Of a stretch of 64,000 bases of DNA, positions 33,165-42,507 are shown in pieces. Within the stretch, counting starts at the first letter, position 1. Every line of letters starts with the position of its first letter. The notes beneath the pieces are model-generated. The model made no database searches. It was not told the DNA's origin and saw nothing but the letters and a program-made list of their open reading frames with translations. A program made the translations under genes and the position numbers. The stretch is from Candidatus Rokuibacteriota bacterium (GTDB taxonomy: Bacteria > Methylomirabilota > Methylomirabilia > Rokubacteriales > CSP1-6), in NCBI GenBank assembly GCA_016866775.1, contig VGLJ01000011.1, positions 1-64,000 on the forward strand, given 5' to 3'.

Positions 33165-34166
33165 TCAGCCGGTCGGCGCGGGCGTCAGTCCGGTCTTCGC
33201 GTACTTCAGGTCGCGATAGTCGCCCGACACCACGGGCGCGTGCTTCGCCCGCCCCTGCGAGGGCAGGCATTCGATGAGCACGTCGTAGTTCGGATGATTG
33301 AAGAACGCGATCGACAGCCGCGCGGCGCCGGGCCCCCCGGCCGGCGGTGGATTGACGACGCGGTGCATGTTCGAGAGCCATCGATCGTTCGTCCAGCGCA
33401 TCAGCAGATCCCCGATGTTCACGACGAACGTCGTCGGTGTCGTCGCGACGTCGATCCACATCCCACCGCGCGTCTGCACCTGCAACCCACCGGCCACATC
33501 CTCGCCGCTCAGGATCGTGAACCCGCCGTAGTCGGTATGCGCGCTGGCGCGGAGCTGACCCGCCTGCGGGGCCGCCGGCTGCGCCGGGTAGTAGTTCAGG
33601 CGCATGGTGCCGATCGAACGGTCGACCTTGTCGTCGAAGAACGCCTCGTCGACGTCGAGCCCGACGGCCGCCAGCCGCATCAGGAACACCACGAGATCGC
33701 TCATCTCGCGGTAGTACGCCGTCGCGGCCCGCTCGAATCCCGCCGGAGCGGCCGGCCAGATGTTCGGCTCGAAGTGCCGCCGGCCGAGCGCGCTCGTGTA
33801 GTACGCCGCGTCGTCGCGCGTGTCGACGGGACCGACGTGGAAGAACTCCTTGAGGTCCGGCGGCGCCGGCGCGTCGCGCGAGGCCGACAGCGTCTCGCCG
33901 CCGACCGGGTGGTAGCCGCGATTGGTCCCCGGCACGGGATGGCGCGCCGCCAGCTTCTCGGCGGCCGGCCGCGAGAAGAACGCGTGCCCGGCCGCGCGCA
34001 GGTCGTCGACGATGCGGTCCGGCACGCCGTGGCCGGTGATCGCGAAGAAGCCGATCTCGCGGCAGGCGTCGTCGATCGCCGCCGCGACACGCGCGCGCGC
34101 CGCCCGCGCGCCGTCGCGCGCCGGTGCCAGGTCGATGACCGGAACGATGGGAGTGGGGGTCGTCAC
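33165..34166 (-). CDS. 2OG-Fe(II) oxygenase, isopenicillin N synthase-like
   Basis: A 333-residue oxygenase with the DIOX_N domain (about residues 8-110: GFFAITGHGVPD) and the catalytic 2OG-FeII domain. Iron ligands are HTD in ASAHTDYGGFTIL and a distal His in SNMHRVVNPP; the Arg-x-Ser 2OG/carboxylate motif is in RLSIAFFNHPN. Members include gibberellin, ethylene and isopenicillin enzymes; in bacteria their roles are mostly unknown. The GTG start overlaps the SDR stop (GTGA), so hydroxylation by this enzyme and oxidation by the SDR may be sequential. Confidence 0.88.
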   Translation of the reverse strand: MTTPTPIVPVIDLAPARDGARAARARVAAAIDDACREIGFFAITGHGVPDRIVDDLRAAGHAFFSRPAAEKLAARHPVPGTNRGYHPVGGETLSASRDAPAPPDLKEFFHVGPVDTRDDAAYYTSALGRRHFEPNIWPAAPAGFERAATAYYREMSDLVVFLMRLAAVGLDVDEAFFDDKVDRSIGTMRLNYYPAQPAAPQAGQLRASAHTDYGGFTILSGEDVAGGLQVQTRGGMWIDVATTPTTFVVNIGDLLMRWTNDRWLSNMHRVVNPPPAGGPGAARLSIAFFNHPNYDVLIECLPSQGRAKHAPVVSGDYRDLKYAKTGLTPAPTG

Positions 34167-34921
34167 AGCGTCGAGAACACCGAGCCGCCGTCGACGACGA
34201 GCGTCTGCCCGCTCATGAACGCGCTGTCGTCGGAGGCCAGGAAGACCACCGCGCCTTCCACGTCCTCCGGAAACGCCTCGCGCTTGAGCGAGCGCGCACG
34301 CATGATCGCGTCGACCTGAAAGTCGGTGATCGCGGGGTTCGCCTGGACGGTGTCGCTCAGGATCAGGCCCGGCGCCACCGCGTTGACGGTGATCCCGTCG
34401 GGACCGAGCTCGCGCGCGAGCGCGCGGGTCATCGCGACCACCGCGCCCTTGGACGTGACGTAGTGGAGCAGCATCGCCGTGCCCTTGGCGACGATGGCCG
34501 AGGCGACGTTGACGATGCGGCCGCCCCGCTGCGCGCGCATGACCGGCGCCACGGCGCGCGCGCAGTTCCAGACGCCCTTCACGTTCACGGCCATCACGCG
34601 GTCCCACTCCGCGTCGGGGATCTCGTCGAACCGCTGCGGCCGGAGCGTCGCGAACACCGCGGCGTTGTTCACGAGCACGTCGACGCGGCCGAAGCGGGTG
34701 ACGGCGGCGTCGACCATCGCGCGGACGGCGGCCGCGTCGCTCACGTCCGTGCGCACGGCGAGCACGTGCTCGGCGGCCTCGAGCTTTTCCGCGGCGGGGA
34801 CGGGATCGACGACGTCCGCGATCACCACGCGGGCGCCCTCGGCGAGGAAGCGCCGGGCGTACGCGACGCCGATGCCCGCCGCCGCTCCCGTGATCACCGC
34901 GACCTTGCCGTCGAGACGCAT
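34163..34921 (-). CDS. Short-chain dehydrogenase/reductase (classical SDR)
   Basis: A 252-residue classical SDR: nucleotide motif TGAAAGIGVAYA at residues about 11-22, NNAAV at about 86, catalytic Ser in NVASAIVAKG, Tyr and Lys in HYVTSKGAVVAM, and the C-terminal MSGQTLVVDGGS. The acidic residue after beta2 (IADVVDP) suggests NAD preference. The ATG at 34921 lies 18 bases from the divergent Rieske gene start at 34940. It shares an operon with the 2OG oxygenase. It closely resembles the SDR at 42510, with the same HYVTSK and PEDV.GA motifs. Confidence 0.9.
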   Translation of the reverse strand: MRLDGKVAVITGAAAGIGVAYARRFLAEGARVVIADVVDPVPAAEKLEAAEHVLAVRTDVSDAAAVRAMVDAAVTRFGRVDVLVNNAAVFATLRPQRFDEIPDAEWDRVMAVNVKGVWNCARAVAPVMRAQRGGRIVNVASAIVAKGTAMLLHYVTSKGAVVAMTRALARELGPDGITVNAVAPGLILSDTVQANPAITDFQVDAIMRARSLKREAFPEDVEGAVVFLASDDSAFMSGQTLVVDGGSVFSTL

Positions 34922-34939
34922 GCGCCGCTCGAGGATACA

Positions 34940-36145
34940 ATGCCCGCGATGAGCGCACGCGTGCAGACGCAGTTCCGCGGCGAGACCGGGGACCTGGCGC
35001 ACCGCGTGCCGATCCTCGAGAAGCTCGCGCCGGCCCACTTCGAGCAGGAGCGCGCGAAGATCTTCCGGCGCGCGTGGCTGCCGGTGGCGCACGCCTCCGA
35101 CGTGCCGGAGCCCGGCAGCTATCTCGTGCGCAACCTGCCGACCCTGCAGACGTCGCTGCTCGTCGCGCGCGGGCGCGACGGGCAGGTGCGGAGCTTCCAC
35201 AACGTCTGCACGCACCGGGGCAACAAGCTCGTGCGCGAAGGGCACGGCTGCCGGCGCCAGTTCAGCTGCGGGTTCCACGGCTGGACGTTCTCGCCGGAGG
35301 GCGAGCTGCTGGTCGTCACCGACGAGCACCAGTTCCAGGATCTCGACAAGGCCTCGCTCGGCCTTCGGCCCGTGCACACCGAGGTGTGGGAAGACCTCGT
35401 GTTCGTGAACGTGGAGCCCGAGCCGCGCGAGCCGCTCCGCGCGTGGCTCGGCGAGCTGGCCGGCGACTACGGCGGATACTTCGCGCGACACGTGCGCGCG
35501 TCGAGCAATCGCGTGATCGTGAAGTGCAACTGGAACCTCTGCGTGAACTCGTTCACCGAGGGGTACCACACGCTCTACATCCACCGGAACTCGGTGCCGG
35601 ACTACCAGGGCGGCACGATCAACCCGCAGCGCCACCGGCCGCTGATGCAGATGTTCCGGCGCCACCATCGCTACTCGGCGCCCGCGAATCCCGACCACGT
35701 GCTCACGCCGGCCGAAGCGCTGGCGGTCAAGTACGGGCGGAAGATCCTGCCGGCGTTCGACGGCGACATGACCGGCATGCCGCCGGGCGTGAACCCCGCG
35801 CGCTACGAGCACTGGGCGTTCGACGTGGTGCAGTTCTTCCCGAACGTCGTGATCCTCTTCGGCAACCACTGGCACATCGAGCTCTTCTTCTGGCCGGTCG
35901 ACGCCACGACCACCGAGGTCGTGCAGGACTTCTGGTTCTACACGCCGGCCACGATCGGCGAGCGGGTCAGCCACCAGTTCTTCCTGAGCCGCGGCCGGCA
36001 GGTGTTCCTCGAGGACCTCACCACGCTCGAGGCGCAGCAGGAGATGCTGTCGTCCGGCGCGCTCACGCACCCGCAGCTCTCGCGGCAGGAGATGAGCCTC
36101 CAGCACCGCTACAAGGTCACGCAGGAGATGCTGGCGGCGCCATGA
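34940..36145 (+). CDS. Rieske non-heme iron oxygenase, alpha subunit
   Basis: A 401-residue ring-hydroxylating-type oxygenase. Rieske ligands are Cys90-x-His92 and Cys110-x2-His113; the mononuclear iron motif is Glu207-x2-His210-x4-His215, with Glu in the place of the more common Asp/Asn. The C-terminal domain is rich in aromatic residues. ATG 34940 is chosen over 34949 because GAGGA is well spaced before it. The stop overlaps the next gene (ATGA), a 118-aa protein that may be its small partner. An LLM enzyme follows. No reductase or ferredoxin is adjacent. Confidence 0.88.
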   Translation: MPAMSARVQTQFRGETGDLAHRVPILEKLAPAHFEQERAKIFRRAWLPVAHASDVPEPGSYLVRNLPTLQTSLLVARGRDGQVRSFHNVCTHRGNKLVREGHGCRRQFSCGFHGWTFSPEGELLVVTDEHQFQDLDKASLGLRPVHTEVWEDLVFVNVEPEPREPLRAWLGELAGDYGGYFARHVRASSNRVIVKCNWNLCVNSFTEGYHTLYIHRNSVPDYQGGTINPQRHRPLMQMFRRHHRYSAPANPDHVLTPAEALAVKYGRKILPAFDGDMTGMPPGVNPARYEHWAFDVVQFFPNVVILFGNHWHIELFFWPVDATTTEVVQDFWFYTPATIGERVSHQFFLSRGRQVFLEDLTTLEAQQEMLSSGALTHPQLSRQEMSLQHRYKVTQEMLAAP

Positions 36146-36498
36146 CGGACGTCGCGCTCCCGCCGGCCTTCGCCGACCTCGCGCCGTTCGCGGACTGGAT
36201 CCTGCCGGTCGAGCGTGACCGTCATCGCAAGCGCGTGACCAGCGACCTGGCGACGACGCGGCGGTTCTACGACGCCATGCTGCCGCGCATGGAGGCGGTC
36301 CTCACGTACCTGAACGGCCGGAGCTGGGAGACGCTCGACGCCGCCGACCGCACCCTGTTCGTCCTCGCGAGCGCGTTCATGGAAGTCTCGCATCCGATCG
36401 AGCTCGGGTGGAAGAGCACCGACATCGAGGACGCGTTCCCGTATCAGCGGCTCGAGTTCCTCTCCGTGTCCGCGCGCACGCCCTGGGGAGATCGATGA
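36142..36498 (+). CDS. Small uncharacterised protein of the Rieske operon
   Basis: A 118-residue protein that I do not recognise. It is soluble and mostly helical, beginning MTDVALPPAFADLAPFADWI, with a conserved-looking MLPRMEAVLTYLN helix and a C-terminal ELGWKSTDIEDAFPYQRLEF segment. It is coupled by ATGA overlaps to the Rieske oxygenase before it and to an LLM enzyme after it, so all three should be made together. By position it could be a small (beta-like) subunit or an assembly factor of the oxygenase, although it does not look like a known beta subunit (which is larger and cystatin-like). Confidence 0.75.
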   Translation: MTDVALPPAFADLAPFADWILPVERDRHRKRVTSDLATTRRFYDAMLPRMEAVLTYLNGRSWETLDAADRTLFVLASAFMEVSHPIELGWKSTDIEDAFPYQRLEFLSVSARTPWGDR

Positions 36499-37598
36499 AG
36501 GTCTACGCGTTCGACCTGATGCCGTGGCCCCACCTGACCGAGCCGTCGCACTACCCCGACTCGAACGCGCTCTTCGATCCGGAGAAGGGCCAGCGCGTCT
36601 ACGCCGAGCACCTCGAGCAGATGGCGCTCTACGAGGAATACGGGTTCGAGGCGATCTGCATCAACGAGCACCACGCGAAGCCGTACGGCCTGATGCCGTC
36701 GCCGAACCTCGTCGCCGCGGCGCTCACGCAGCGCACGCGGACGATCAAGATCGGCCTGCTGGGCAACCTCCCGGCGCTGCACGGGCACCCGGTCCGGCTC
36801 GCGGAAGAGGTCGCGATGCTCGACCTCATGTCCGGCGGCCGCATCATCTCGGGCTTCGTGCGCGGGGTGCCGCAGGAGTACCTCGCGCTCAGCGTGCCGC
36901 TCGGCGATGCGCGCGAGCGCATGCGCGAGGCGTGGGACCTCGTCATCAAGGCATGGACGTCGCGTGAGCCGTTCGAGTGGCGCGGCAAGTACTTCAGCTA
37001 CGACCGCGTCTGCATCTGGCCGCGGCCGCTCCAGCAGCCACACCCGCCGATCGTCCTGCCCGCCGACAGCGACGAGGGTCTCCAGACGGCGGCGAGCCGC
37101 CGGGTGCCGACGGGCGCCGCCTATCGGTCGGCCGCGCGGACGAAGGACGTCTTCGAGCGGTACCGGCGCTTCGCGGCGACCCACGGCTGGACGCCGCAGC
37201 CGTCGGACTGTCATGTCCTGCGCCACGTCTACGTGGGTGAGACGAGCGCGAAGGCCCGCGCGGAGGCCGAGCCGCATCTCGACTACTTCTGGCAGAAGCT
37301 CCTGAGCTATCACCGCGGCTCGATGAAGCTGCTCGGCCAGATCCCGCAGGGCCCGCCCGCGGTGAAGAGCGGGGCCGAGGACGTGCCGTTCTATGCGTTC
37401 GACTTCGACCTGACGCAGAAGGAAGGCATCACGCTCGTCGGCGACGCGGACGAGGTGGCCGGGATGATCAGCGCGCAGATGCGCGAGGTCGGCGCCGGCG
37501 TGCTGATGGGGCTGTTCCAGTTCGGCAGCATGCCGCACGACCTCGCGCGGAAGAACATCGAGCGCTTCGCGACGCGGGTGCTCCCGAAGCTCCGCTGA
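36495..37598 (+). CDS. LLM-class flavin-dependent monooxygenase
   Basis: A 367-residue luciferase-like enzyme: CINEHHAKPYGLMPSPN near residue 55, IKIGLLGNLPALHGHPVRLAEEVAMLD, and GRIISGFVRGVPQEYLAL. It begins inside the preceding small gene (ATGA) and ends one base before the RelE toxin stop from the other strand. As the third gene after a Rieske oxygenase it probably acts on the same substrate class. Substrate unknown. Confidence 0.86.
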   Translation: MKVYAFDLMPWPHLTEPSHYPDSNALFDPEKGQRVYAEHLEQMALYEEYGFEAICINEHHAKPYGLMPSPNLVAAALTQRTRTIKIGLLGNLPALHGHPVRLAEEVAMLDLMSGGRIISGFVRGVPQEYLALSVPLGDARERMREAWDLVIKAWTSREPFEWRGKYFSYDRVCIWPRPLQQPHPPIVLPADSDEGLQTAASRRVPTGAAYRSAARTKDVFERYRRFAATHGWTPQPSDCHVLRHVYVGETSAKARAEAEPHLDYFWQKLLSYHRGSMKLLGQIPQGPPAVKSGAEDVPFYAFDFDLTQKEGITLVGDADEVAGMISAQMREVGAGVLMGLFQFGSMPHDLARKNIERFATRVLPKLR

Positions 37599-37886
37599 TT
37601 AGCGCCGCGCCGCCAGCTCTTCATAGATCGATCGTCGATGACCGACCGCGACGATGCGAAGCACGCGTGCGCGGAGGTCGATCTCGTAGACGACACGGTA
37701 GCGCCGGACGCGATATCGCCACGTTCCTTCCAGTTCCCGGACGAGGGGCACGCCTTCGTGTGGATCCAGGGCCAACGCACGGAGTGCCGCGCGGACCCCG
37801 TGCGTCACATCCGGCGACAGGTGCCGGATGACGTCCGCGGCGTGAGGAGGGATGTCGAGGGTGAACCGGCGACTAGCGCCGGCCAC
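37599..37886 (-). CDS. RelE/ParE-family toxin
   Basis: A 95-residue toxin of the RelE/ParE fold. RELEGTWRYRVRRYRVVYEID is the typical beta-hairpin core with positively charged residues, followed by RVLRIVAVGHRRSIYEEL near the C-terminus. RelE-type members cleave mRNA on the ribosome. The start lies 14 bases inside the end of the upstream antitoxin gene, the usual translational coupling. The antitoxin gene is an unusual chimera (see 37873-38229). Confidence 0.88.
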   Translation of the reverse strand: MAGASRRFTLDIPPHAADVIRHLSPDVTHGVRAALRALALDPHEGVPLVRELEGTWRYRVRRYRVVYEIDLRARVLRIVAVGHRRSIYEELAARR

Positions 37887-38229
37887 GCCGCTTCGGCATC
37901 GTCAGCGGCTCGCCGAATACGTCTTCGAAGGAGAGCCCCTTGGCACCCCGGGCGTAGTGCTTCTCGCTCGCGCGAATCTGCCGCATGAGCTCGGGGTCAC
38001 TCAGAACGTCGATCGTCGCCTTGAGGCGCTCGTACTCGTCCACGTTCAGGAGCACAGCCGCCGCACGCCCGTTGCGGGTGACCTTGATCAGCTCATGCGC
38101 CTCGAGCTGCGCGTCGCACTGGCGGACGACGGCGTCGCTGACGCCTTCGACGCCGACGTGCAGTATCGCGGCGAGCCGCTGTCCGAGGCCGCGCAGGTAG
38201 CGCCGCTGCTTGCCGGTGAGCTCAGCCAT
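37873..38229 (-). CDS. Chimeric antitoxin: YhbY RNA-binding domain fused to Phd/YefM toxin-binding region
   Basis: A 118-residue single open frame made of two recognisable parts. Residues 1 to about 50 (LTGKQRRYLRGLG, HVGVEGVSDAVV, LEAHELIKV) match the N-terminal half of YhbY, the CRM-type ribosome-associated RNA-binding protein. From about residue 50 on (VTRNGRAAAVLLNVDEYERL, then LSDPELMRQIRASE and SFEDVFGEPL) it matches the last strands of the Phd/YefM fold and its toxin-neutralising tail. The usual Phd DNA-binding N-terminus is missing, and so is the YhbY C-terminal half. The junction lies at the shared word IKVTRNG. The RelE toxin gene follows directly. Regulation may thus be RNA- or ribosome-based. 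Confidence 0.82.
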   Translation of the reverse strand: MAELTGKQRRYLRGLGQRLAAILHVGVEGVSDAVVRQCDAQLEAHELIKVTRNGRAAAVLLNVDEYERLKATIDVLSDPELMRQIRASEKHYARGAKGLSFEDVFGEPLTMPKRRGRR

Positions 38230-38242
38230 GTGCGGATGTGCC

Positions 38243-38323
38243 GGCACTCGCGGAGGGCGACGGCTTCGCCGGCGCCCGGAGCGCGGGGGGCTTGGGGGGC
38301 CGCTGGAGGCGGCCCCCCATCTC
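38243..38323 (+). repeat. G-rich palindromic element, copy A
   Basis: Most complete copy. Begins GGCACTCGCGGA, then hairpin 1 (GGGCGACGGC-TTC-GCCGGCGCCC, imperfect), bridge GGAGCGCGGGGGGCTT, hairpin 2 (GGGGGGCCGC-TGGAG-GCGGCCCCCC) and ATCTC. It lies between an SDR gene and the antitoxin gene, both leftward. The SDR stop codon (38322-38324) overlaps its last bases. Confidence 0.87.
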
Positions 38324-39107
38324 AAGCAGCCGTCACCCCGCCGTCGACGGGCAGCGCGGCGCCGGTGATGAACGACGCCTCGTCGGAGAGCAGGAACAGC
38401 GCGGCGTTCGCGATCTCCTCCGGCTTGCCGGTGCGCTTGAGCGGCACGGAGTTCGCGGCGCGCTTGGCGACGAGCTCCTCCGGGTCCATGCCGGCCGTGG
38501 ACTTCTGATCGGGACGCGCGACGAACACGCGCAGCATCGGCGTGTCGATCGGGCCGGGGCAGACCGCGTTCACGCGGATGTTCTCGGGCGCGAGCCGCAG
38601 CGCGAGGCTCTTCACGAAGCCGACCACGCCGAACTTGCACATCGAGTAGACCGGGCTGAAGCCGGAGCCGACGAGCCCGGACGTGGACGCGGTGAACACC
38701 ATGCTGCCGCCGCCTCGGCGCCGCATCTCGGGAATCGCCGCCTCGGTCGTCACGAGCACCGTGCGGAGGTTGAGATCGACCGCGAGATCGAACGTGCTCA
38801 TGTCGATGCCTTCGACGGCGGCGGGCCCGGGATGCCCCACGTGGTTCCACACGAAGTCGAGCCCCTTGAAGCGATTGACGGTGTCCCAGACGATCCGGCG
38901 CGAGTCCTCGTCCTTCGTCAGATCGGCTGTGAGGCCGAGCGCCGTGCCACCCGCCGCCGTGATCTCGTCGACGACGCGCTTCACGCTCGTCGCGTCGATG
39001 TCGACGACGGCGACCTGCGCGCCCTCGCGCGCGAAGCGCAGCGCACCGGCACGGCCCATGCCCGACCCCGCCGCGGTGACGATGCCGATCTTGTTCGCCA
39101 AGCGCAT
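38322..39107 (-). CDS. Short-chain dehydrogenase/reductase (classical SDR)
   Basis: A 261-residue SDR: TAAGSGMGRAGA nucleotide motif near residue 11, VVDIDA after beta2 (NAD-type), catalytic Ser in TASTSGLVG, Tyr-x3-Lys in YSMCKFGVVGF, and SFITGAALPVDGG at the end. The usual NNAG is WNHVG, an uncommon variant. The ATG at 39107 follows directly after repeat element F, which supplies the upstream G-rich sequence; the longer frame from 39155 would be encoded by the repeat and is rejected. It probably shares a transcript with the binding protein upstream. Confidence 0.89.
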   Translation of the reverse strand: MRLANKIGIVTAAGSGMGRAGALRFAREGAQVAVVDIDATSVKRVVDEITAAGGTALGLTADLTKDEDSRRIVWDTVNRFKGLDFVWNHVGHPGPAAVEGIDMSTFDLAVDLNLRTVLVTTEAAIPEMRRRGGGSMVFTASTSGLVGSGFSPVYSMCKFGVVGFVKSLALRLAPENIRVNAVCPGPIDTPMLRVFVARPDQKSTAGMDPEELVAKRAANSVPLKRTGKPEEIANAALFLLSDEASFITGAALPVDGGVTAA

Positions 39108-39110
39108 GCC

Positions 39111-39162
39111 CAAACCCCCTTTGAACATGGGGGCCCCACAGCTGAGGACCCCCAAAACCCCC
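39111..39162 (-). repeat. Short G-rich hairpin element, copy F (class II)
   Basis: On the minus strand, from just after the binding-protein stop to the SDR start: GGGGGGTTTTGGGGGTCCT, loop CAGCTGT, GGGGCCCCC, ATGTTCAAA, GGGGGTTTGGG. The stem is 9 bp with wobble pairs. It matches copy E at 30768. The G-runs could also form a G-quadruplex in the SDR leader. Confidence 0.75.
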
Positions 39163-39897
39163 CTACGCGCGCGGGGCGACCGTCACCCCACGCGCGCCCG
39201 TGCGCTCGATCGCGCGCGCGACGAGCCCGGACGCCTTCGCGTCCTCGACCACCGACCGCAGATACGCGACCCCGGCGCTCTTGCCTTTCGGCACGCCGAT
39301 CGACTGCTGGACACCCATGAACCGTCCGTCGAGCATGCGCGAGCCCGGCAGCTTCGCCGCCAGCCCGAACAGCGCTTCCGTCAATCCGGCGAGCGCGTCG
39401 ACCTTGCCCGAGACGAGGAGATCGAACGCGGCGGGGGCGCCGTCGGTGGACGTGAGCTGCGCCTGCTTCAACGTCCGCTTGAGAAAGAGCTCGTAGTTCG
39501 CGCGCGCCGGCGCGGCCACGCGAATGCCCGCGCGATCGACCTCGGCCGCCGCGCGCAGCGGCGAGGAGCCCTGCACGAGATAGGTGGCCTCGATCTCGAG
39601 GTACGCGGCGGTGAAGTCGATGACGGTCTCGCGCGCGGGCTCGGAGCCGAGGAACGCCACGTCCCACGCCCCCTTGGACGCGTCGTCGACCATCACGCCG
39701 ACGAGGTCGTACGCGACGATCGTGAGGGGCACGCCGAGCCGGGAAGCGACCTCGCGCGCGAGGTCGATCGCGACGCCTTTCGACTCGCCGGTGGTCTTGT
39801 CCTTCGTGGCGAGGATGAAGTTGCCGTAGTTGATCGCCGCGCGGAGCGTCCCGGTCGGCGCGAGGTCGGTGCGGACGGCAGGCGTGTTCCGGCTCAT
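39163..39897 (-). CDS. Family-3 solute-binding protein domain, apparently without a signal peptide
   Basis: A 244-residue amino-acid-type (SBP_bac_3) periplasmic binding fold: LRAAINYGNFILATKDK, GVAIDLAREVASRLGVPL and AWDVAFLGSEPARETVIDFTAAY are characteristic. From the ATG at 39897 the protein begins MSRNTPAVRTDLAPTG, with no hydrophobic signal. The frame is open further upstream, but the extension overlaps the divergent lipoprotein gene start and is not a convincing signal either. It may be a cytoplasmic ligand-binding or regulatory protein, or the true start may be missed. No ABC permease genes adjoin it. Confidence 0.8.
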   Translation of the reverse strand: MSRNTPAVRTDLAPTGTLRAAINYGNFILATKDKTTGESKGVAIDLAREVASRLGVPLTIVAYDLVGVMVDDASKGAWDVAFLGSEPARETVIDFTAAYLEIEATYLVQGSSPLRAAAEVDRAGIRVAAPARANYELFLKRTLKQAQLTSTDGAPAAFDLLVSGKVDALAGLTEALFGLAAKLPGSRMLDGRFMGVQQSIGVPKGKSAGVAYLRSVVEDAKASGLVARAIERTGARGVTVAPRA

Positions 39898-39922
39898 GGT
39901 GCCGGATGCTAGCATTAACGTG

Positions 39923-40324
39923 ATGAAGCCGCCGACCGCCGCCCTGGTCGCCGTCCTCGCCCTCGTCGCCGGATGCGCCGCCGCGCCCGGCCTTTCGCCC
40001 TCGGCGTCCGTGACGACGACCATGCAGGGCTGGGAGCACTACTTCCGGATCGAGTCCACGCCGACGCCGAAGGCGGGCGGCACCGAGATCGAAGGCTACG
40101 TCCACAACAAGTACGGGCGCCCCGCCACCGTGCGCTTGCTCGGGCAGGCGCTCGATGCCTCGAACAACGTCGTCGGCCAGCGGATCGTGTGGGTGCCGGG
40201 CGGCGTCCCCCAGCTCAGCCGCGCCTACTTCAAGATTTCCGGCCTCCCGCCCGCCGACCATTACCGCGTCACGGTATGGTCCTTCGACATCACCGACACC
40301 GACTCGTCCCACCGGCGCTTCTGA
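39923..40324 (+). CDS. Small lipoprotein, FxLYD-like
   Basis: A 133-residue lipoprotein. The N-terminus MKPPTAALVAVLALVAGC has a lipobox (LVAGC) with Cys18 as the lipidation site. The mature part has a beta-rich segment EIEGYVHNKYGRPATVRLL followed by LDASNNVVGQ, a pattern like FxLYD-type domains that fold as small beta-sandwiches on the cell surface. It starts 25 bases from the divergent binding-protein gene. Function unknown. Confidence 0.75.
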   Translation: MKPPTAALVAVLALVAGCAAAPGLSPSASVTTTMQGWEHYFRIESTPTPKAGGTEIEGYVHNKYGRPATVRLLGQALDASNNVVGQRIVWVPGGVPQLSRAYFKISGLPPADHYRVTVWSFDITDTDSSHRRF

Positions 40325-40349
40325 CCTCAACCGCGGGCCCCGGCGCAGC

Positions 40350-40817
40350 CTGAACCGCCCCGCCCTCGATCGATTCCGTCACGCCCAGGACGCCGCGCAC
40401 GGCGGCTTCGCGACCGCCCTCGCCGAGCTGCGCGCCGGACGCAAGCGCAGCCACTGGATCTGGTACGTCTTCCCGCAGCTCGCCGGCCTCGGACGCTCGT
40501 CGACCGCGATCCACTACGGCATCGGAGACGCCGACGAAGCCGCCGCGTACCTGCGCGATCCCGTGCTCGGCGAGCGTCTGCTCACCGCGGCCGGCGCCGT
40601 GCGGTCGCACCTTTCCGCGCCGTCGCCGCCACGTCTCGACCGGCTGATGGGCTCCGAGATCGACGCGCTCAAGCTCGTGTCGTGCATGACGCTCTTCGCG
40701 ATCGTGGCGAAGCGCGTCGGCGCCGCCGCGATGGCCGAGCACGCGGACGCGATCCTGGACGCCGCCGCGCGGCAGGGCTACGCGCGGTGCGAGTTCACCG
40801 AGGCCGCGCTCGCCTGA
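40350..40817 (+). CDS. DUF1810 family protein
   Basis: About 155 residues of the DUF1810 family: LDRFRHAQDAAHGGFATAL at the start, then AGRKRSHWIWYVFPQLAGLG, the hallmark motif, and MGSEIDALKLVSCMTLFAIV. No ATG, GTG or TTG lies near the expected N-terminus; a CTG at 40350 is the best nearby candidate and I use it with reservation. The frame is open upstream through the lipoprotein gene, so a missed start or a lost base is possible. The biochemical function of the family is unknown. Confidence 0.72.
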   Translation: MNRPALDRFRHAQDAAHGGFATALAELRAGRKRSHWIWYVFPQLAGLGRSSTAIHYGIGDADEAAAYLRDPVLGERLLTAAGAVRSHLSAPSPPRLDRLMGSEIDALKLVSCMTLFAIVAKRVGAAAMAEHADAILDAAARQGYARCEFTEAALA

Positions 40818-40850
40818 CGCGGCTACAATCCGCGCCAGGAGGGACCTGGC

Positions 40851-42467
40851 GTGGACGACATCCTGATCCGCGGTGGCTACGTCGTCGACGGCAGCGGCGC
40901 CGCGGGGCGCGAGGCCGACCTCGCGCTGCAAGGCGGCCGCATCGCGGCGATCGAGCCGCGCTCGTCGCGGCCCGCGCGGCGCGTGATCGACGCGCGAGGC
41001 CAGGTCGTCGCGCCCGGCTTCATCGACATCCACACGCACTCCGACTTCACGCTGCCGCTCAACCCGCGCGCGGAGTCGAAGATCCGGCAGGGCGTGACGA
41101 CGGAAGTCGTCGGCAACTGCGGCTTCTCCGTGGCGCCCGCGCTCCCCGGCCGCGCCGCGATGCTCCGCGAGTATCTCGCGTCGAGCGCGCCGTGGCTGCC
41201 GTTCCGCGAGACGACGTTCGCCGAGTACGTCGCGAGCTTCCCGCCCACGGCCGTCAACGTGATCCTCCAGGTCGGCCATCACACCCTGCGCCTCATGGCG
41301 GCGGGCATGGAGAAGCGGCCGCTGACCGGCGGCGAGCGCGCGGTGATGACCACGCTGCTCGAAGAGGCGCTCGCGGCCGGGGCGTGGGGACTCTCGTCCG
41401 GCCTCTTCACGGCGCCCGGCGGCTACGCGGACCCCGAGGAAATCCACGGGCTCGCGCGCGTGCTCGCACGCCATCGCGCGGCGTACGCGTCGCACATCCG
41501 GGACGAGGCCGATCACGTCTTCGACGCGGTTCGCGAAGCGATCGCCGTCGCCGAGACGACCGGCGTGCACGTGCAGATCGCGCACCTGAAGCTGTCCGGC
41601 ACCGACAACTGGGGCGGCGCCGCGCGGCTGCTCGCGGAGATCGAGGCGGCGCGCCTGCGCGGCCTGCCGGTCGACGTCGACGCGTATCCGTACGACACCG
41701 CGACCAATCCGCTCCGGAACCTGCTGCCGCGCTGGATCATGGACGGCGGCATCCCGGCGATGCTGGAGCGCCTCGCGCGCCGCGACACCCGCACGCGGCT
41801 CAGACAGGACATCGCCCGCGACGGACTGACGAACTTCGGTCGCATCCCGTCGTGGGACGTGGTGCGCGTCGCCGTCGCGCCGCACCTGCCCGACCAGGCG
41901 GGGCGCACCTTCGGCGACATCGCGCGCGGCCGGAACGTCGATCCGCTCGACGCGGTGTGCGACTTCGTGGTCGCCGATCGCGGCGAGACCCGCATCCTGA
42001 TCACGTCGATGGCCGACGGGGACGTGCGCGCGATCACCGGCGCGCCGTGGGTCCTCGCGGGATCGGACGCGAACGCGCTGGCCGTGTCCGGCGTCACCGG
42101 ACAAGGCAAGCCGCACCCGCGCAGCTACGGCACGCACGCACGCCTGCTCGGACCGTGCGTCCGCGACTGGAAGCTGTTCCCGCTCGAGACCGCCGTGGAC
42201 AAGACGACCGGCGGCGCGGCGCGCGCGCTCGGGCTCGCGGACCGCGGGCTGCTGCGCGCGGGGTTCCGGGCCGACGTGGCGGTTTTCGACCCGGCGCGGA
42301 TCGCCGACCTGTCGACGTATCCCGAGCCGCACCGCTACGCGATCGGCGTGTCGACCGTGATCGTCAACGGCGCCGTCGTGATCGACGGCGGCGACCACAC
42401 CGGCGCCACGCCCGGCCGCGTGTTACGACGCGGCGTGGACGGCACCCCGCCGTCGAGACAGGCCTGA
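40851..42467 (+). CDS. N-acyl-D-amino-acid deacylase (D-aminoacylase family)
   Basis: A 538-residue amidohydrolase-superfamily enzyme that removes the acyl group from N-acyl-D-amino acids. The metal-site motif GFIDIHTHSDFT lies near residue 57; the family Cys is in VVGNCGFSVAP; His residues follow in YASHIRDEAD and QIAHLKLSG; the catalytic Asp is in LAGSDANALA. The C-terminus FRADVAVFDP is the usual beta-sandwich. The start is GTG at 40851 with GGAGGGACC upstream. A G-rich hairpin (element G) follows the stop directly and separates it from the convergent SDR. Confidence 0.9.
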   Translation: MDDILIRGGYVVDGSGAAGREADLALQGGRIAAIEPRSSRPARRVIDARGQVVAPGFIDIHTHSDFTLPLNPRAESKIRQGVTTEVVGNCGFSVAPALPGRAAMLREYLASSAPWLPFRETTFAEYVASFPPTAVNVILQVGHHTLRLMAAGMEKRPLTGGERAVMTTLLEEALAAGAWGLSSGLFTAPGGYADPEEIHGLARVLARHRAAYASHIRDEADHVFDAVREAIAVAETTGVHVQIAHLKLSGTDNWGGAARLLAEIEAARLRGLPVDVDAYPYDTATNPLRNLLPRWIMDGGIPAMLERLARRDTRTRLRQDIARDGLTNFGRIPSWDVVRVAVAPHLPDQAGRTFGDIARGRNVDPLDAVCDFVVADRGETRILITSMADGDVRAITGAPWVLAGSDANALAVSGVTGQGKPHPRSYGTHARLLGPCVRDWKLFPLETAVDKTTGGAARALGLADRGLLRAGFRADVAVFDPARIADLSTYPEPHRYAIGVSTVIVNGAVVIDGGDHTGATPGRVLRRGVDGTPPSRQA

Positions 42468-42507
42468 GGGGGGCTTGGGGGGGCCGCTAGAGGCGGCCCC
42501 CCATCTG
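42468..42507 (+). repeat. G-rich palindromic element, copy G (half element)
   Basis: GGGGGGCTTGGGGGGGCCGC, loop TAGAG, GCGGCCCCCC, ATCTG: the bridge and second hairpin of the class I element without the first hairpin. It fills the gap between the convergent deacylase and SDR stops, where it could act as a bidirectional terminator, though it has no U-tract. Confidence 0.8.

Follow-up and report, generated by a model that had tools for sequence, protein, structure and literature searches.

An antitoxin gene of one uncultured bacterium in which the first half of YhbY appears to replace the DNA-binding half

Introduction

What becomes of a toxin-antitoxin pair when its antitoxin exchanges DNA binding for something else? 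Domain shuffling in antitoxins normally exchanges one DNA-binding module for another. At the locus described here a crossover appears to have inserted an RNA-binding half-domain and removed the DNA-binding half and the operator, with the reading frame unbroken. The locus lies in a 64,000-nucleotide stretch (the window) of contig VGLJ01000011.1, from a Candidatus Rokuibacteriota bacterium. We asked where the two parts of the gene come from, whether the toxin and the toxin-binding segment are preserved, and what the exchange would mean for control of the pair.

Results

The antitoxin gene occupies positions 37873-38229 of the minus strand, as an open frame of 118 codons plus stop, free of internal stops and frameshifts and with a Pfam match in each half. 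Residues 4-54 correspond to positions 1-51 of the 84-position CRS1_YhbY profile (54.2 bits, cut-off 27), and residues 44-94 to positions 23-73 of 74 in PhdYeFM_antitox (PF02604; 38.6 bits, cut-off 29.8). The preliminary description of this DNA had read the gene as a single frame joining the N-terminal half of YhbY to the last part of Phd/YefM, and both matches exceed their curated cut-offs. Neither parent domain is complete. On the YhbY side, the CRM domain lacks profile positions 52-84 (33 of 84), and the score against the YhbY equivalog TIGR00253 is 45.9 bits, below the cut-off of 78.5. The DNA-binding domain of Phd/YefM has the order b1-a1-a2-b2-b3-a3 (PMC11980606); in the chimera nothing matches before profile position 23, and the PISEVKARLPEL-like start of close intact antitoxins is absent, in line with the earlier claim that this half had been replaced. 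Judged from its sequence, the antitoxin gene of this one uncultured bacterium has thus lost its DNA-binding half, and in its place stands the N-terminal half of a protein of ribosome assembly.

The YhbY-derived half (residues 1-50; 38080-38229, minus strand) was delimited by identity to intact yhbY. It is mostly conserved and shares the GxxG frame and both N-terminal CRM helices with E. coli YhbY (1LN4), HI1333 (1JO0) and 1RQ8, but these have a full CRM domain, the remainder of which is absent from the chimera. The loop itself, G26-V-E-G29, has a hydrophobic residue where the nearest intact relatives, with GHEG, GHDG or GRDG, have H or R. Compared with intact yhbY of the phylum and of locus L061, this half gave pN values of 0.10-0.19 and pS values of 0.30-0.44 (0.10 and 0.43, pN below pS, for the nearest); its pN is slightly above that among most intact yhbY genes, and change before the fusion is inseparable in these values from change after it.

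The parents could be recognized in other genomes. Intact yhbY from four genomes of the same family (G015, G017, G035 and G062) is 72-82% identical to residues 1-50 and diverges thereafter. Intact phd-relE pairs occur in one genome of the same family (G021), one of the same class (G053) and dozens elsewhere, among them many Nitrospira, proteobacterial and acidobacterial genomes; their gene order is that of the chimera pair, and identity to close intact homologues is mostly 55-77% for the chimera tail and mostly 43-65% for the toxin. Only 4 of 57 genomes of the family have an intact yhbY, so the group seems able to do without this factor of ribosome assembly. In a synteny comparison, the genes flanking orthologues of a luciferase-like neighbour differed from those at the locus, identity was only 38-41% for the dehydrogenases close to yhbY in G015 and G017, and the comparison marked no site for the recombination.

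Pairwise DNA alignments and an exact-match scan placed the crossover in the stretch GAGCTGATCAAGGTC (38080-38094, minus strand), which shares its codon register with GAGGAGATCNNNGTC of phd. Identity to yhbY extends through GAGCTGATCAAGGTC(A) and identity to phd begins at GTCACCCGCAACGG; the earlier placement of the join, at IKV/VTRNG, was accurate, one homology stopping and the other starting at IKV|TRNG. The look-alike stretch is 15 bases long, of which about 4 exact bases are common to both parents at the switch (GTCA, 38079-38082). In the Phd order this position is strand b2, a strand common to the YhbY and Phd folds.

The same join was found in none of 57 genomes of the family, 95 of the phylum or 84,980 species genomes, and viral contigs (searched by junction pattern and by protein) and plasmids yielded at most one of the two halves. 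Scans with exact peptides, as used in this search, reach close relatives only, so that independent, distant fusions could escape them. The lack of a second genome, which the preliminary description had named as a refuting outcome, speaks against a spread, selected family but leaves the existence of the chimera untouched; a singleton gives no means of showing selection for the fused form. Among the papers found to name both words, none describes a YhbY-antitoxin fusion.

Directly downstream of the chimera, and overlapping it by 14 nt, is a gene with a GTG start for a 95-residue protein of the RelE/ParE fold (37599-37886, minus strand; PF05016, 42.5 bits; PDB alignments to 2khe, 3g5o_B and 9g12_A), which agrees with the RelE neighbour first described. 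Antitoxin and RelE-fold toxin genes are thus adjacent in one operon, as in type II systems. The best solved relatives of the toxin include M. tuberculosis RelE2 (3G5O) and RelE1 (9G12), and its R59, R64, R84 and Y88 align with R60, R65, R85 and Y89 of RelE1, substitution of which lowers RelE1 toxicity (PMC12620021). 16S rRNA is cut by RelE1 and probably by RelE2 as well (PMC12620021).

The M. tuberculosis systems RelBE2 (Rv2865-Rv2866) and RelBE1 are likewise two-gene pairs. The Phd/RelB2-derived tail of the chimera (residues 51-118; 37876-38079, minus strand), delimited by homologue identity, a conservation table and the PDB match to the 3g5o and 9g12 antitoxins, comprises strand b3, helix a3 and the toxin-wrapping helices. 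Chimera and RelB antitoxins align over the b2-b3 hairpin and these helices; the Phd-like N-terminal domain for dimerisation and DNA binding is complete in the RelB antitoxins, whereas the chimera has YhbY in place of the first elements of that domain. The toxin-neutralising tail had been called intact. This stands insofar as the segment is conserved overall, but three conserved positions are substituted (P56A, E71A and F91H). Of these, the toxin-facing position 71 aligns with E50 of RelB1, which forms a salt bridge to the catalytic R65 of RelE1 (PMC12620021) and has alanine as its equivalent in the chimera. With the toxin intact, which argues for some neutralisation, and the tail largely conserved, the chimera most likely still neutralises RelE.

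A structure predicted for the chimera had mean pLDDT values of 39-55 in the YhbY half, where the underlying alignment held three sequences only, and of 77-85 in most of the tail. An intact homologue modelled as a control reached a mean of 81.8, with 79-88 over residues 1-90. Viral contigs held no further yhbY with which to deepen the alignment. In the chimera model, the helix of residues 32-43, from YhbY, is followed by the hairpin 48-52/55-60. Foldseek and VIA-align placed model residues 19-113 on residues 4-98 of RelB/Phd antitoxins (3g5o, 9g12 and 3oei; Z about 5), with an rmsd of 6.9-7.7 Å over 81-85 residues, a superposition that includes the low-confidence N-terminal half. Phd/RelB-type antitoxins came top when this low-confidence-N-half model was compared with the PDB, and no YhbY chain was among the matches listed; at that confidence the ranking weighs neither for nor against a YhbY-like fold. 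The model suggests that the YhbY half may stand in topologically for the N-terminal elements of Phd.

In 54 of 61 intact homologues the antitoxin gene is closely preceded by the 16-bp palindrome GACCAGAATTCTGGTC, with 3 mismatches or fewer; it is exact in 25 and has a single mismatch in 24 (49 of 61 with 0-1), and base-shuffled controls almost never gave fewer than 4 mismatches. Its distance to the gene is nearly fixed, and the homologues that do not have it are mostly distant ones. The bearers are the phd-relE family of loci L006-L058, L130 and L135. From its position, symmetry and conservation, GACCAGAATTCTGGTC is probably the operator of this widespread family.

Close intact antitoxins of the family thus combine the PISEVKARLPEL-like start with, in nearly all cases, GACCAGAATTCTGGTC; the chimera has neither. 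In its upstream region (38230-38293, minus strand) the best match to the palindrome has 7 mismatches, which is chance level, and no copy with 2 or fewer mismatches occurs anywhere in the genome. The loss of DNA control therefore goes beyond what was first claimed: as far as the sequence tells, the DNA-binding half and the palindrome, a putative operator, are lost together, as would be expected had a yhbY locus supplied all of the sequence ahead of the crossover. This region bears no clear similarity to the sequences upstream of known yhbY genes, so we infer its yhbY origin. Promoter and terminator scans found no promoter-like site or terminator there.

Beyond this region, directly 3' of the stop codon that ends the short-chain dehydrogenase gene upstream, sequence folding revealed a hairpin, GGGGGGCCGCCTCCAGCGGCCCCCC (38294-38318, minus strand). 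The hairpin GGGGGGCCGCCTCYAGCGGCCCCCC has 28 copies in the genome at 3 or fewer mismatches, compared with 0 for the reversed control; its copies in the window are at 38294-38318 and 42478-42502. From its place after the dehydrogenase stop, and having no T run, the copy at 38294 could represent an atypical terminator or a REP-like element; it may end the dehydrogenase transcript. The genes around the locus (34163-42467) are of catabolic type: two short-chain dehydrogenases, a Rieske ring-hydroxylating oxygenase, a luciferase-like monooxygenase, a solute-binding protein and an amidohydrolase.

Discussion

We put at about 60% the probability that the locus is a real, lineage-specific gene chimera encoding a RelE antitoxin that has escaped transcriptional autoregulation. 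An illegitimate crossover over the 15-base look-alike stretch would have set the 5' portion of a host-type yhbY, and probably the region preceding that gene as well, before the 3' part of a phd-relE pair. The pieces exchanged would be topologically similar, YhbY b1-a2-b2 for Phd b1-a1-b2, and the product should still be able to offer both the b2-b3 hairpin and the helices that wrap the toxin, a further reason to expect that it neutralises RelE. Having lost the DNA-contacting half and the operator, the chimera would no longer be self-repressing, would be without conditional cooperativity, and would be driven by whatever promoter lies upstream. The YhbY half would then be mainly a substitute structural cap. 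Several observations tell against this reading: the fusion is a singleton, the YhbY half is modelled at low confidence (though from three YhbY sequences only), E71A takes away the acid equivalent to E50 of RelB1, no promoter-like site precedes the gene, pN is slightly raised, and synteny marks no site for the recombination.

The gene could also be a recent or decaying by-product of recombination: unselected, with a toxin that is weakly active or poorly expressed, at a locus being lost. Occurrence in one genome only would fit this, as would the three substitutions at conserved tail positions and the lack of a recognisable promoter. We nevertheless consider it doubtful, given a frame open over all of its codons and an intact toxin with four conserved key residues; a cell with an active toxin and no antitoxin would be expected to suffer.

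The preliminary description had proposed an antitoxin that docks on rRNA or the ribosome. The YhbY half would bring the pair to rRNA or to the pre-50S particles with which YhbY associates (PMC4021458), ribosomal-RNA binding would have been gained in exchange for the binding of operator DNA, and the RelE-family toxin would be kept and set free on the ribosome, or on subunits under assembly, and not be under promoter control. That this half is mostly conserved, GxxG frame and CRM helices included, is in keeping with the proposal, and so is the presence of rRNA cutters (RelE1, and probably RelE2) among the nearest solved toxins (PMC12620021). It sits poorly, however, with a CRM domain cut at position 51 of 84 and scoring well short of the YhbY equivalog, a GVEG loop where the nearest intact yhbY genes have H or R, an N-terminal half modelled at low confidence, alanine for the conserved toxin-facing glutamate, and a fusion seen once; we find the proposal improbable. 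A chimeric assembly or library artefact uniting two unrelated genes is very improbable even in a draft genome of 159 contigs that is probably metagenomic, and with a join in no second genome, because the roughly 4 exact bases that the parents share at the switch are far fewer than an assembler k-mer; moreover, reading frame and structural register are preserved across the join, and the genome has no second yhbY besides the chimera half and no close phd copy elsewhere.

If, as we favour, this is a real chimera released from autoregulation, the toxin pair is probably uncoupled from its usual self-control. The palindrome GACCAGAATTCTGGTC of the widespread phd-relE family is a new side result and is directly testable. 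The locus itself would be a natural experiment on the survival of a toxin-antitoxin pair that no longer regulates itself, and on the smallest part of an antitoxin's N-terminal domain that suffices to hold the toxin.
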